Below, piece after piece: positions 14,724-29,473 of a DNA stretch of 29,473 bases. The stretch is from a virus: the IMG/VR virus record IMGVR_UViG_3300036900_000098, positions 1-29,473 of that record. One strand, 5' to 3'. The notes below the pieces were generated by a model. That model saw only the letters and a list, made by a program, of their open reading frames with translations, did no database searches and had not been told where the DNA came from. Within the stretch, counting starts at the first letter, position 1, and the number at the start of each line of letters is the position of its first letter. Made by a program: the position numbers and the translations under genes.

Positions 14724-14770
14724 GGGAGCAATTAAACCACGAAGCGACGACTTCGCTATCAATTGCTCCC
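14724..14770. repeat. Perfect 10-bp inverted repeat with a nested hairpin
   Basis: GGGAGCAATT (14724-14733) and AATTGCTCCC (14761-14770) are perfect reverse complements separated by 27 bases. The spacer itself can fold: CGAAG (14740-14744) pairs with CTTCG (14751-14755). No T-run follows on the minus strand, so it is not a plain intrinsic terminator. It lies 40-86 bases after the scaffold stop and upstream of the promoter candidate. It could be an operator or an RNA processing site. Confidence 0.7.
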
Positions 14771-26537: not shown

Positions 26538-27085
26538 AACACCGGGTCCTTTGACGCTGTCCAGACGCCTTCGGTCCCAAGGCTGAAAGAGAACGCGAGG
26601 TGGAAATAAAGCGCCTGCCCGTTATGTCCACCGGGCAGCGGATCCCCTTCGTTGAATGCCCAGCTTCCATCAGTCCGACGAACGTTGATCGCGAGGAACA
26701 TCCCGCCGTTTTCAGCGCCTACATAACCCGAGGGTGGCTTGATTGGATCAGGCGGGGGTACGAAGGGCTTGTACATTGGATCGTCAGCGTCGGCGGACAC
26801 CACGATCGCCTGTTTCTCAGCGGGCGTCCCGATCAGTGCCGGCGTCCAAAAGGTCGAGGAGAACATATTCGGCAGCCACTTCAATCCCTGATAGACGGAG
26901 GCGCGACCAAGCATAAGGGCCCCGGCATCGCATCCGAGGATCCAGATGTAGTAATCGGGGGCAAAGCCCTTGTCGAAAAGCTGTTTGGCGAGAGTCAATC
27001 GCTCCGCCGTCGTGCTCAGGTGCCGAATCGCTTCGACCTCGGTGTGTTGCGCTGCCCAATACTGCTCGTTCGTAACGAAGTTCAT
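26534..27085 (-). CDS. Unknown protein with aromatic and Pro-rich regions
   Basis: The product has 183 residues. The N-terminal 100 residues appear globular (MNFVTNEQYWAAQHTEVEAIRHL; GFAPDYYIWILGCDAGALMLGRAS), a Pro-rich segment follows (VPPPDPIKPPSGYVG), and the last 60 residues look like a small beta domain (GGMFLAINVRRTDGSWAFNEG, GQALYFHLAFSFSLG). I recognise no family. I chose the ATG at 27085, with GAGAGGAG 13 bases upstream. An ATG at 27139 in the same frame would add 18 residues and overlap the previous gene by 11 bases. Confidence 0.6.
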   Translation of the reverse strand: MNFVTNEQYWAAQHTEVEAIRHLSTTAERLTLAKQLFDKGFAPDYYIWILGCDAGALMLGRASVYQGLKWLPNMFSSTFWTPALIGTPAEKQAIVVSADADDPMYKPFVPPPDPIKPPSGYVGAENGGMFLAINVRRTDGSWAFNEGDPLPGGHNGQALYFHLAFSFSLGTEGVWTASKDPVL

Positions 27086-27128
27086 GTGGCTGATATTACT
27101 CCTCTCTCTGTGGTTTCGTCTAGTTAAA

Positions 27129-27368
27129 TCATTTTCCATGGGTTTTGTTTGCAACTTCCACCATCGCCGCTGCTGCCAGCCAGGGCAGATACCTCGGAAC
27201 CTCAAAGTGGTCCCGAAACCTTCGGACGGTGAGAAGGTCCCTGTCGCACCAGATAGCATCGAAGTGCTTCATTTTCAATAGACCAGAGATAATCCGGATC
27301 TGTTCATTAAGTTCCGGGACGTGGAACCTCGCTTCCTTAGAGGCCTGTATTTTCAACGGGTTAAGCAT
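27129..27368 (-). CDS. Small protein of unknown function
   Basis: The 79-residue product starts MLNPLKIQASKEARFHVPELNEQIRII and includes MKHFDAIWCDRDLLTVRRFRDHFEVPRYLPWLAAAAMVEV, which reads as a basic helical domain. The ATG at 27368 was chosen because it follows the previous TGA by five bases; a GTG at 27422 in the same frame would lie deep in the upstream gene. Its TGA lies inside the alternative ATG region of the next gene. I see no known motif. Confidence 0.5.
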   Translation of the reverse strand: MLNPLKIQASKEARFHVPELNEQIRIISGLLKMKHFDAIWCDRDLLTVRRFRDHFEVPRYLPWLAAAAMVEVANKTHGK

Positions 27369-27373
27369 TCCTA

Positions 27374-27667
27374 TCAGTTTTCCGAAATTGCGCAAGTTTG
27401 CGAATGCCCGTAGAACGCGCACAAACGCGCCAGGTTCGTTCGTTGGGGAAACTGGCCCCGTTGCCGCGATGCCGGGCAGAAAACTCGCTGTGCGTTGCGC
27501 CGTGGCCCGGGATTAGGTCCAAAACCAATCATTGGCACTGCGGCACTTGAACCATTCATGCTTTCGCGATCGGCATTCTCCCCTGTCAGCCAAAAATATG
27601 GACCCAGCGAAACCATGGAATCTCCGATAACTTCAATCATTGCCTTGTTCCACGGGGAACAATTCAT
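27374..27667 (-). CDS. Small protein of unknown function
   Basis: The 97-residue product has a hydrophobic/Gly segment at its start (MIEVIGDSMVSLGPYFWL, GSSAAVPMIGFGPNPG), then a basic Cys-containing end (CPASRQRGQFPQ, LARLCAFYG). No family is recognised. The ATG overlaps the TGA of the initiator-like gene (ATGA), and GCGGAG lies 8 bases upstream, both in favour of a real gene. Its composition is odd, so there is some chance that it is a chance open frame. Confidence 0.5.
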   Translation of the reverse strand: MNCSPWNKAMIEVIGDSMVSLGPYFWLTGENADRESMNGSSAAVPMIGFGPNPGPRRNAQRVFCPASRQRGQFPQRTNLARLCAFYGHSQTCAISEN

Positions 27668-28173
27668 GATTGGCGCTCCGCAAGAAGGCTCAGGCCGGTC
27701 TCAGAAGCCGGGGGTTTGCGCTCGCGCATCATCGCCATGATGCGCTCGATTTCGGCCCCGGAGCACGGGCGCGGCAAGCCCGAAGCCGCCGCAAAGCCCT
27801 CGATCTGCGCCCACTCATCGAGGGCGGGGTTTTCCACAGGTTGGGAAGGGGAACGGTATTCCTCCCCATTAACACTCGAAGAGTTAATATAGGGATGAAA
27901 TGGCCTTGACCGGACAAATGACCGGACATTTGAGCGGACATTTTGCCCGCTATTGCGTTGAATTAGAACGGAATACAAAAGCGATCTAGGCCCACGCCTT
28001 TGACACTTCAGCTTACCCTCCGAGAGGAGTTGTTCGGTCCATCGGCGGATGGTCCGGGTGTTCACCTTGAAACGCCGCGCGAGGAAGTCTTGGCCGGGAT
28101 AGCACCTCTCGGCACCGTAGGTGCGGGCGAACCTGGTCAACAGCGTCAAAAGCGCAGATGGTCCACCTTTCAC
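27664..28173 (-). CDS. Winged-helix DNA-binding protein, replication-initiator-like
   Basis: The product has 169 residues. Residues about 10-70 form a winged helix: LLTLLTRFARTYGAERCYPGQDFLARRFKVNTRTIRRWTEQLLSEGKLKCQRRGPRSLLYSVL, with LARRFKVNTRTIRRWTEQL as the recognition part. This resembles the N-terminal DNA-binding domain of phage replication initiators and of helix-turn-helix regulators. A low-complexity linker follows (NVRSNVRSFVRS, then SSS) and then a C-terminal helical part. That layout is like lambda O. The GTG at 28173 overlaps the previous TGA (GTGA) and has GGAG 8 bases upstream. It may instead be a transcription regulator. Confidence 0.68.
   Translation of the reverse strand: MKGGPSALLTLLTRFARTYGAERCYPGQDFLARRFKVNTRTIRRWTEQLLSEGKLKCQRRGPRSLLYSVLIQRNSGQNVRSNVRSFVRSRPFHPYINSSSVNGEEYRSPSQPVENPALDEWAQIEGFAAASGLPRPCSGAEIERIMAMMRERKPPASETGLSLLAERQS
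27908..27943. repeat. Three 12-bp direct repeats inside the initiator-like gene (iteron-like)
   Basis: On the plus strand the units GACCGGACAAAT, GACCGGACATTT and GAGCGGACATTT follow one another without gaps (27908-27919, 27920-27931, 27932-27943). They code for the repeated VRS residues of the linker. Downstream in transcription, 27867-27900 is A+T-rich and includes an imperfect inverted repeat (ATTAACACTC / GAGTTAAT). Repeats plus A+T-rich DNA within an initiator gene form the plan of a lambda-type origin; this remains inference. Confidence 0.55.
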
Positions 28174-28913
28174 GGCTTCGTCTCCTTCGCTGGTTCGCTC
28201 GGCGTGGCGAGGGCAGCACAAAATTGTTTCAGTAGGTCCGTTAGATCCCCCCATTGAGTAACTGACGGCAGAGCGCGCATCACCCCAGTTACGTAGCAGC
28301 CCTCATACCCCTTGAATGGTTCGAGAACCTTAACGCCGGCTTGCAGTAGCTCGCGCAGCTCTTCGGCACGTTGCTTCCATTGGTCGCGCTCTTCTTCTGC
28401 CGCTAGTGCCCGGCCTTCCATTGAATCGTAGACGTTGAACACTTGGTGGATGGTGTTGCATTCACGGAACGGTTTGAAGCTATGAATCTCGCTGCGTTGC
28501 CCCTCCACTTGAAATTCCAGCCCCTCGATCTTCACCCGTAATAGGGCGTTGTCTTGGCGCTCGCCTTCCAGTTCTCGGATAGTCGATTGAAATTCCTTGA
28601 CCTTGTCGTCAGCGGTGAGACTCGCCCACATCTGGCACAGAGCGAACTCCTCATCGCGGTCGCCAAAATGTGCGGCGGCCTCAGCGTCGTCCGCCGTCTC
28701 GAAGCCGCAATGGAAGCACCGATAGATGCTCTCGGCACGCTTGGTTTGTGCGGCGAGTTGGGCGCGAAGTTCGTCGTAATCTTCTAGCCTCGCAACAGCG
28801 GAGTGTTCCTTTGCGAGCTCGATGTATTCTTCGTCGGTTATCAGTTCGACTTCGTGCAGCTCCATGCGCTGCTGGCGCACGAGATCGAACAAACGCTGGT
28901 TATCGAAGCTCAT
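28170..28913 (-). CDS. Coiled-coil protein with C2H2-like zinc-binding motif
   Basis: The product has 247 residues. It starts SFDNQRLFDLVRQQRMELHEVELITDEEYIELA, followed near residues 60-85 by YRCFHCGFETADDAEAAAHFGDRDEE, a CxxC with a following His as in small zinc motifs of phage proteins. Long charged helices follow (LEGERQDNALLRVKIEGLEFQVEGQRSE; ALAAEEERDQWKQRAEELRELLQAG) with coiled-coil spacing, and a C-terminal helical tail. Phage proteins of this make-up are common in early regions and of unknown role. The ATG at 28913 has AGAGGAG six bases upstream. It is followed by the initiator-like gene with GTGA overlap. Confidence 0.7.
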   Translation of the reverse strand: MSFDNQRLFDLVRQQRMELHEVELITDEEYIELAKEHSAVARLEDYDELRAQLAAQTKRAESIYRCFHCGFETADDAEAAAHFGDRDEEFALCQMWASLTADDKVKEFQSTIRELEGERQDNALLRVKIEGLEFQVEGQRSEIHSFKPFRECNTIHQVFNVYDSMEGRALAAEEERDQWKQRAEELRELLQAGVKVLEPFKGYEGCYVTGVMRALPSVTQWGDLTDLLKQFCAALATPSEPAKETKP

Positions 28914-28974
28914 GCTTCGCTCCTCTCGCTGCGTCGATTGCTTCTCGCACATCAGTCGGCTGCATGTGTTTCAC
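28900..28974 (-). CDS. 24-residue mini-ORF with a strong ribosome binding site
   Basis: GTG at 28974 overlaps the previous mini-ORF's TGA (GTGA) and has GGAGG 7 bases upstream. The 24 codons (MKHMQPTDVREAIDA at the start, then a basic end) run to a TAA at 28900-28902, overlapping the next gene's ATG at 28913 by 14 bases. An internal ATG at 28965 is possible. The sequence also contains the next gene's AGAGGAG. It may be a coupling leader or a micropeptide. Confidence 0.5.
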   Translation of the reverse strand: MKHMQPTDVREAIDAARGAKHELR

Positions 28975-29033
28975 GACCAATCCTCCAGATTCTTTAGCGC
29001 CGAGCGGAGCGCAATCAAGTCATCGTTGGGCAT
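28971..29033 (-). CDS. 20-residue mini-ORF coupled to the previous gene
   Basis: ATG at 29033 follows the previous TGA directly, with AAAGGAGA 6 bases upstream. The 20-residue peptide (MPNDDLIALRSALKNLEDWS) is acidic and helical and ends with TGA, whose first bases overlap the GTG of the next mini-ORF. Strong initiation signal and both-sided coupling support translation; no function is recognised. Confidence 0.5.
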   Translation of the reverse strand: MPNDDLIALRSALKNLEDWS

Positions 29034-29045
29034 TCAGCGTCTCCT
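29031..29045 (-). repeat. Repeated stop/RBS/start junction, copy 3 (variant)
   Basis: The minus strand reads AGGAGACGCTGAATG: stop TGA of one gene, ATG of the next, with the ribosome binding site in the last codons of the first. It differs from the other two copies by loss of two A residues. Confidence 0.6.
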
Positions 29046-29255
29046 TTCGGCGTCGTAATCCACCTTAAGATCACTGACCTGCTGGATGTGGTCCAGGATC
29101 TCCTCCGTGGTCCAGAGGCTCGTCATACCGAATGCGTACAGCGTTCCTGGAGTAAGCTGGTCAGCCAAGACTTGCAAGCATAAGCGAAGCACTCGACGCT
29201 GGGCCGCGATCACGCTACGCGGTTTGTATTTTTTCTCGGCAGTATTTCTAGGCAT
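29034..29255 (-). CDS. Small basic protein of unknown function
   Basis: The product has 73 residues: a basic N-terminus (PRNTAEKKYKPRSVIAAQRRVLRL), a central helix (CLQVLADQLTPGTLYAFG), and an acidic/basic C-terminus (TTEEILDHIQQVSDLKVDYDAERRR). No membrane segment or known motif. The ATG at 29255 follows the previous TGA immediately, and GGAGAAACGC just upstream serves as its ribosome binding site. It is probably a regulator or nucleic-acid-binding protein, though this is only composition. Confidence 0.65.
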   Translation of the reverse strand: MPRNTAEKKYKPRSVIAAQRRVLRLCLQVLADQLTPGTLYAFGMTSLWTTEEILDHIQQVSDLKVDYDAERRR

Positions 29256-29268
29256 TCAGCGTTTCTCC
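29253..29268 (-). repeat. Repeated stop/RBS/start junction, copy 2
   Basis: The minus strand reads GGAGAAACGCTGAATG, identical over 16 bases to the copy at 29445-29460. It joins the 63-residue membrane-protein gene to the 73-residue gene. Confidence 0.7.
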
Positions 29269-29447
29269 CCATGCCTGCTAGTGACGATTGCATGAGCCAC
29301 GATCATCACGGCCATAGCTGTGTAATCTCGCGCGGTGACGTGTGGGAAGTGTCGGAACGTAAACAGCGGCCATGCAAGCCACAGCGATACCAAGAACAAA
29401 ATTAGCGCCACGATCACCCACGGATCGCGAAAAAGTTTCCAGTTCAT
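29256..29447 (-). CDS. Small two-helix membrane protein
   Basis: The 63-residue product has a hydrophobic helix (WVIVALILFLVSLWLAWPLF, 10-29) and a second, weaker one (YTAMAVMIVAHAIVTS, 42-57), with HFPHVTARD between them and a basic end (HGEKR). Membrane topology is clear, function is not. The ATG follows a TGA directly and has GGAGAAACGC upstream; the last three codons (EKR) and the stop form the same element for the next gene. Confidence 0.65.
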   Translation of the reverse strand: MNWKLFRDPWVIVALILFLVSLWLAWPLFTFRHFPHVTARDYTAMAVMIVAHAIVTSRHGEKR

Positions 29448-29460
29448 TCAGCGTTTCTCC
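29445..29460 (-). repeat. Repeated stop/RBS/start junction, copy 1
   Basis: The minus strand reads GGAGAAACGCTGAATG. It joins the gene cut by the right edge to the 63-residue membrane-protein gene. The three copies lie about 190-220 bases apart. Confidence 0.7.
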
Positions 29461-29473
29461 AGATAGTCCATTA
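29448..29473 (-). CDS. C-terminal end of an upstream gene (partial)
   Basis: At the right edge, the last codons of a frame read MDYLEKR and stop with TGA at 29450-29448, followed directly by the ATG at 29447. The end is the same EKR-stop junction used by the next gene. Too little is present to name it; the MDY could be an internal methionine of a longer protein. Confidence 0.45.

Follow-up and report, generated by a model that had tools for sequence, protein, structure and literature searches.

A short stretch of the viral contig IMGVR_UViG_3300036900_000098 is, very probably, an intragenic replication origin served by the phage's own winged-helix initiator. This DNA combines a winged-helix coding region, three contiguous 12-bp repeats placed just downstream of it and a low-stability flank, and related genes carry, at the same place, short-lag repeats whose sequence is specific to each lineage. 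An uncultivated phage thereby gains a candidate origin that can be tested. In what follows, the window refers to the whole stretch of DNA analysed (29473 bases).

The initiator-like gene, its repeats and their flank

The window is a fragmentary contig whose minus strand carries the genes for terminase, portal and major head proteins. An HNH_3 endonuclease gene (2223-2666, 47.9 bits), possibly encoding a homing endonuclease, lies between the structural genes. The initiator-like gene lies close to the right end of the contig, which extends 1.2 kb past it; its coordinates and those of the elements inside it are collected in Table 1.

Table 1. The initiator-like gene and the elements of the candidate origin, in window coordinates.
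Feature	Position	Strand	Basis or detail
Replication initiator-like gene, 196 aa	27664..28254	minus	winged helix, disordered linker and two C-terminal helices
Winged-helix DNA-binding domain, about residues 30-102	27949..28167	minus	AlphaFold2 model and structural matches
Iteron 1 (candidate), AATGTCCGCTCA	27931..27942	minus	sequence
Iteron 2 (candidate), AATGTCCGGTCA	27919..27930	minus	sequence
Iteron 3 (candidate), TTTGTCCGGTCA	27907..27918	minus	sequence
A+T-rich low-stability stretch around the repeats, candidate unwinding element	27868..27967		43% GC
Imperfect inverted repeat TTAACACTCGAAGAGTTAA	27869..27887		sequence; hairpin in DNA fold
Two C-terminal helices (residues 145-157 and 166-178)	27721..27822	minus	AlphaFold2, pLDDT 51-79 in blocks of ten

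The protein matches HTH_36 with 25.5 bits, just above the Pfam cut-off of 25, and its PHROG matches, all weak, are to families of DnaD-like loaders, O-like proteins and replication initiation proteins. Phage_rep_O (PF04492) is absent from the 6 families matched at E <= 0.1, and at the same threshold Pfam recognised neither a RepA_N N-terminus nor a DnaB_2 or Bac_RepA_C C-terminus. The AlphaFold2 model (built from 3 sequences, with a mean pLDDT of 59.5 and low confidence beyond the winged helix) places three helices (residues 32-46, 55-62 and 66-78) and two strands (82-86 and 94-98) in the winged-helix part, where pLDDT is mostly 64-89 in blocks of ten, followed by a low-confidence linker (residues 102-136) that is predicted to be disordered. 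The C-terminal helices (residues 145-178) may be the part that contacts the replisome; the C-terminus matched no known family in Pfam or PHROG, and these two collections recognised no helicase or loader among the window proteins scanned.

Foldseek searches with the predicted structure returned nothing at E <= 0.001. A second structural comparison gave generic DNA-binding proteins of the winged-helix type (Z up to 8.8, with rmsd 2.0 over 64 residues), and the match to 4pql_A, which we take to be a RepA_N domain, was level with many others (Z 7.7, rmsd 2.9 over 74 residues). The profile search against solved structures yielded no clear relative, its best hit being TubR (E 0.19). At the sequence level, tblastn returned one phage and 21 plasmid records, every one with an E of about 6-10 and hence of no use, a direct search of the viral contigs with the protein gave no relative, and neither the terminase nor the initiator of the window was found in the 396 genomes (0/396 each) of the phylum of a MAG titled Sulfotelmatobacter (G020, the genome of contig L028 discussed below).

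The three repeats follow one another without a gap on the coding strand (minus) at 27907-27942, with a period of 12 and within linker-coding DNA, and the encoded peptide reads NVRS-NVRS-FVRS; an earlier note, made from the window's sequence, had described both the array in the linker of a winged-helix gene and the VRS repeats it encodes, and both descriptions are confirmed. All three exact copies of the decamer TGTCCGNTCA in the window fall within this array, and four more matches with one mismatch are scattered elsewhere. What is unusual is their clustering and not their number, because seven in all is about what shuffled sequences give. The best 22-bp self-match in the gene (19/22, at lag 12) was equalled by none of 1000 codon shuffles, and a shorter 12-bp self-match in the same gene was reached by 42/1000.

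The A+T-rich stretch and its imperfect inverted repeat, also described in that note, are likewise present. The GC content at 27868-27967 is well below the mean (56.5%), with only 0.16% of the 100-bp segments as low, and by nearest-neighbour stability this DNA is among the least stable 0.13-0.26% (approximately) of such segments in the contig. Treated as single-stranded DNA, positions 27855-27945 fold better than shuffled sequences (z -2.66; 3/200 as good). The lowest stability of any 100-bp segment of the contig is found at 27058-27157, about 0.8 kb from the candidate iterons and beside gene starts, and this segment could be a promoter region. The cumulative GC skew is lowest at the contig end (29460) and peaks mildly at 14728, and over the 29473-base contig it gives no support for an origin at the repeats.

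It is conceivable, but unlikely, that the protein uses these repeats as an operator, repressing its own gene, or as a centromere for segregating the genome, in the manner of TubR. Winged helices are indeed common in repressors, and winged-helix relatives match the TubR profile weakly (at the E-value given above); nevertheless, the repeats lie inside the gene, after the DNA-binding part and not upstream, the family matches of the winged-helix relatives are mostly to replication proteins, and one scan of 27400-29473, for sigma-70-type promoters only, gave no promoter-like site.

Repeats in related initiator genes

Terminases related to that of the window phage are present in 15 viral contigs, many of them fragments. 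A replication gene was recognised in five of these sisters (using three family searches), and three of the five (G001, G010 and G003) have repeats inside it. The terminase of G001 is 72% identical to that of the window phage, and its initiator is homologous to the window's (38% identity, E 1.3e-5), being the sole close homologue found; relatives of the G001 protein were not found among GenBank phages and other viral contigs. Directly after its winged helix, at the place matching the window's repeats, G001 carries ATGTCGCATCA twice at lag 11 (0/1000 codon shuffles as good at 12 bp, 191/1000 at 22 bp). The decamer TGTCGCATCA of this repeat aligns with the window's TGTCCGGTCA as TGTC-NNN-TCA, and is translated in two codon phases, as CRIN and as NVAS. 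Since a period of 11 is not a multiple of three, the same DNA is translated in two frames, and a repeat at the protein level cannot account for that. In G010, a gene whose C-terminal domain is of the replication-initiation type contains three copies of CGTCCAGCGAA, again with a lag of 11 (0/1000 shuffles), and the Phage_rep_O gene (PF04492) of G003 has a 12-bp match at its 3' end with a lag of 35 (1/1000 shuffles), likewise not divisible by three. The remaining two sisters (G006 and G007) have a phrog_270-type replication gene, with no significant in-gene repeat (62-507/1000 codon shuffles as good) and a protein whose N-terminus is unlike that of the window protein.

Winged-helix genes of other phages also contain the TGTC-NNN-TCA decamer, in either orientation and in different codon phases. 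In particular, on contig L003 it occurs in both orientations and in codon phases 2 and 3, within a viral HTH_36 gene that matches replication-initiation families strongly; the protein encoded there has no relative in GenBank phages or in the other viral contigs. A further gene, on contig L079, has the decamer in reverse, and in its relatives, whose winged helices are 59% identical, the 12-bp repeats persist with an altered sequence.

In order to describe this class starting from the protein, an alignment of the N-terminal domain (A1) was begun from the L079 protein, with its relatives and five GenBank phages, and 64 loci were collected by an N-terminal peptide pattern, of which 14 were dropped for having identical domain DNA, leaving 50 distinct genes. 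Each was scored by its best 24-bp self-match, with a lag of 9-30, in the 200 bp following the winged-helix domain. A self-match of at least 20/24 lies directly after the domain in 28 of the 50 genes, and one of at least 18 in 44, rates that may be somewhat high because it was a repeat that had led to the seed, L079 (protein similarity alone led to the other members of A1 and to the 64 loci). At the stricter threshold, the controls gave 0/50 within the domain and 0/50 for the stretch 300-500 bp downstream, a missing stretch in short loci being scored as none. These controls, as well as the codon-change counts given below, are independent of the seed. Among the 28 strong repeats, the lag is 12 in 19 genes, 24 in seven, and 30 and 23 in one each; a few genes of the set have frame-breaking lags, such as 11 and 23.

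The way in which the copies of one array differ from each other was counted by codon, a procedure that lags not divisible by three cannot enter. In 30 lineages (obtained from 38 genes by dropping by hand eight near relatives with the same or nearly the same repeat peptide), there are 6 synonymous and 55 non-synonymous changes, the synonymous share being below the 21.6% expected under random change (P 0.013), and third codon positions are the least changed (18/240, vs 33/240 and 28/240; P 0.08). With all 38 genes, the counts are 6 and 78, respectively. This is the reverse of what peptide conservation would give, and the repeat peptides themselves vary widely by lineage (DRTS, STQD, ETNL and TEVQ, among others).

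These results bear on the concern, raised in the earlier note, that selection may act on the protein; NVRS/FVRS would then be favoured as a basic, flexible linker, and the repetition in the DNA would be a by-product. The period of 12 keeps the frame open, and the linker is predicted to be disordered, as such a reading allows; its probability is nonetheless quite low, given the frame-breaking 11-bp periods of two sister phages (G001 and G010), the variation of the repeat peptides from lineage to lineage, and the mostly non-synonymous differences between copies. Moreover, the DNA of the three window copies is more alike than the peptide requires, since their 30/36 pairwise matches were reached by 0.11% of synonymous redraws (P 0.0011), in which the peptide was fixed and the phage's own codon usage was applied. 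The concern is therefore largely answered, because the G001 period breaks the frame and because related initiators use other frames and orientations. More generally, a short in-gene DNA repeat can be distinguished from a protein repeat by means of frame-breaking relatives and codon-change counts. The comparison with relatives that the note had proposed, looking for DNA repeats conserved beyond the codons, thus comes out in favour of its main suggestion, and a replication origin inside the initiator-like gene is, at the level of sequence comparison, the supported reading.

A neutral minisatellite, that is, a short tandem array made by slippage and without function, is a very improbable source of the repeats: the copies within one gene are nearly identical, as a recent tandem duplication could explain, and arrays in unrelated genes also turn up when genomes are scanned with the repeat pattern, but strong arrays of lineage-specific sequence follow the winged helix in 28/50 distinct genes, against 0/50 in the controls.

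Known intragenic origins and a possible mechanism

The origin proposed for the window belongs to a known kind, the intragenic initiator-origin. The iterons of lambda are palindromic and longer than those of the window. The lambda origin is reported to have its iterons and an A+T-rich tract in the middle of gene O, with four iterons in lambda and six in Stx phages (PMC7466680). The likeness consists of iterons and A+T-rich DNA inside an initiator gene; the window repeat differs in sequence, and the window protein matches HTH_36 and not Phage_rep_O. Hence, the term "lambda-type", used in the earlier note, is appropriate for the layout and not for the protein family.

An N-terminus of the same domain class is found in the Staphylococcus plasmid pPR9, whose hybrid initiator begins with a pfam13730 domain and whose mini-replicon is reported to replicate autonomously (PMC5703833). 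In its rep gene, repeats with lags of 15 and 45 come directly after the HTH and are followed by A+T-rich DNA, so that an HTH_36-type N-terminus, repeats right after it and A+T-rich DNA are shared with the window, all within rep. The repeat sequence and lags differ, as does the large RepA C-terminal domain of pPR9, and its HTH_36 score (16.7) is under the cut-off, whereas that of the window protein is above. The same source describes for pSK41, of the RepA_N type, a winged-helix N-terminus that binds Rep boxes located centrally in rep, the encoded linker being dispensable (PMC5703833); the C-terminus of the window protein is much shorter, and RepA_N is not among its matches. For gp38 and oriL of phage SPP1, and for Fhv_0043 of the Francisella phage KIRK, the initiator gene is likewise described as containing direct repeats along with A+T-rich DNA; binding by gp38 is reported (PMC6316719), the KIRK origin is putative (PMC7924643), and in both cases the printed layout is like that of the window. 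Additionally, in the genes for DnaD-like phage helicase loaders, the winged-helix part is immediately followed by 12-bp direct repeats and then by A-rich DNA, in 5/5 GenBank records inspected by eye (including Aeribacillus phage AP45 and Flavonifractor phage Chenonceau); each has its own repeat sequence, and AP45 has a DnaB_2 C-terminal domain, which the window protein lacks.

We take the window repeats as iterons bound by the product of the gene in which they lie, because of the precedents of lambda, SPP1, pSK41 and pPR9. In the mechanism that we propose, the N-terminal winged helix would bind the three 12-bp iterons just downstream of the DNA coding for it, with copies about one helical turn apart, so that the bound molecules would be lined up; the A+T-rich DNA beside the iterons, inverted repeat included, would then melt, and the short C-terminal part would bring the host helicase or its loader. 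The stretch would, in this way, act as the active origin of the phage, and perhaps as its only one.

On balance, we favour a more general rule, in which phage winged-helix initiators (HTH_36 and DnaD-like) would carry iterons spaced by about one helical turn (11-12 bp) directly after the sequence for the DNA-binding domain. Domain and repeat would change together from lineage to lineage; initiator and origin would thus diversify and move as one cassette, and the origins of uncultivated phages could be read from sequence. In the available portions of the open-licence literature, no statement of a 12-bp repeat rule for such initiators was found. The frequency of a short-lag repeat after the winged helix (28/50, or 44/50 with the looser threshold) suggests a simple way to locate phage origins and to match initiators to their sites.

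Similar arrays in other contigs

The repeat pattern TGTCCGNTCANNTGTCCGNTCA was found in four viral and 39 genome contigs. Among the viral ones, only the match in L003 lies in an HTH_36 gene; L002 and L004 were rejected as initiator-gene repeats, with no recognised initiator at the match, and L005 was rejected as an in-gene repeat, as its array is on two strands, upstream of terminase-like genes, and no conserved gene was recognised over it. In this L005 array (661-875), decamers of the TGTCCGCTCA type stand at nine positions, distributed over the two strands and apparently outside any conserved gene; with a repeat that is nearly the window's, the array may be an origin or operator in non-coding DNA. 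Of the matches listed for the genome contigs, most are chance or repeat-rich coding sequence, and none is a recognised initiator.

A looser three-copy pattern matched 26 viral contigs (the DNA was read for all 26, and the gene context for 10). In L079, L081 and L091, the array is part of a winged-helix or initiator-like gene; L081 and L091 are called initiator-like by eye only, because L091 is without a family match and that of L081 is weak. In L082, the array adjoins an HTH-like gene. The remaining contigs look like low-complexity coding sequence or like the flank of a tRNA-like integration site, and were set aside. The latter corresponds to six contigs (L067, L069, L070, L071, L078 and L083) sharing a near-identical TGTCC-type triple repeat, whose flank looks like an integration site by a tRNA-like gene end.

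Two other kinds of array were seen in the genome contigs. Acidobacteriota MAG contigs have in common an intergenic TGTCCGATCAGG array (L008:21-55, L011:1652-1673, L013:3026-3059 and L028:1539-1573), with two or three copies at a spacing of 12-13 bp, the flanks being much alike and the copy number variable. In Chlorobiaceae, L015 (3736-3889) and L032 have arrays of a near-identical 12-bp unit of the TGTCCGGTCACT type, near the end of a repeat-rich gene, which look like a minisatellite.
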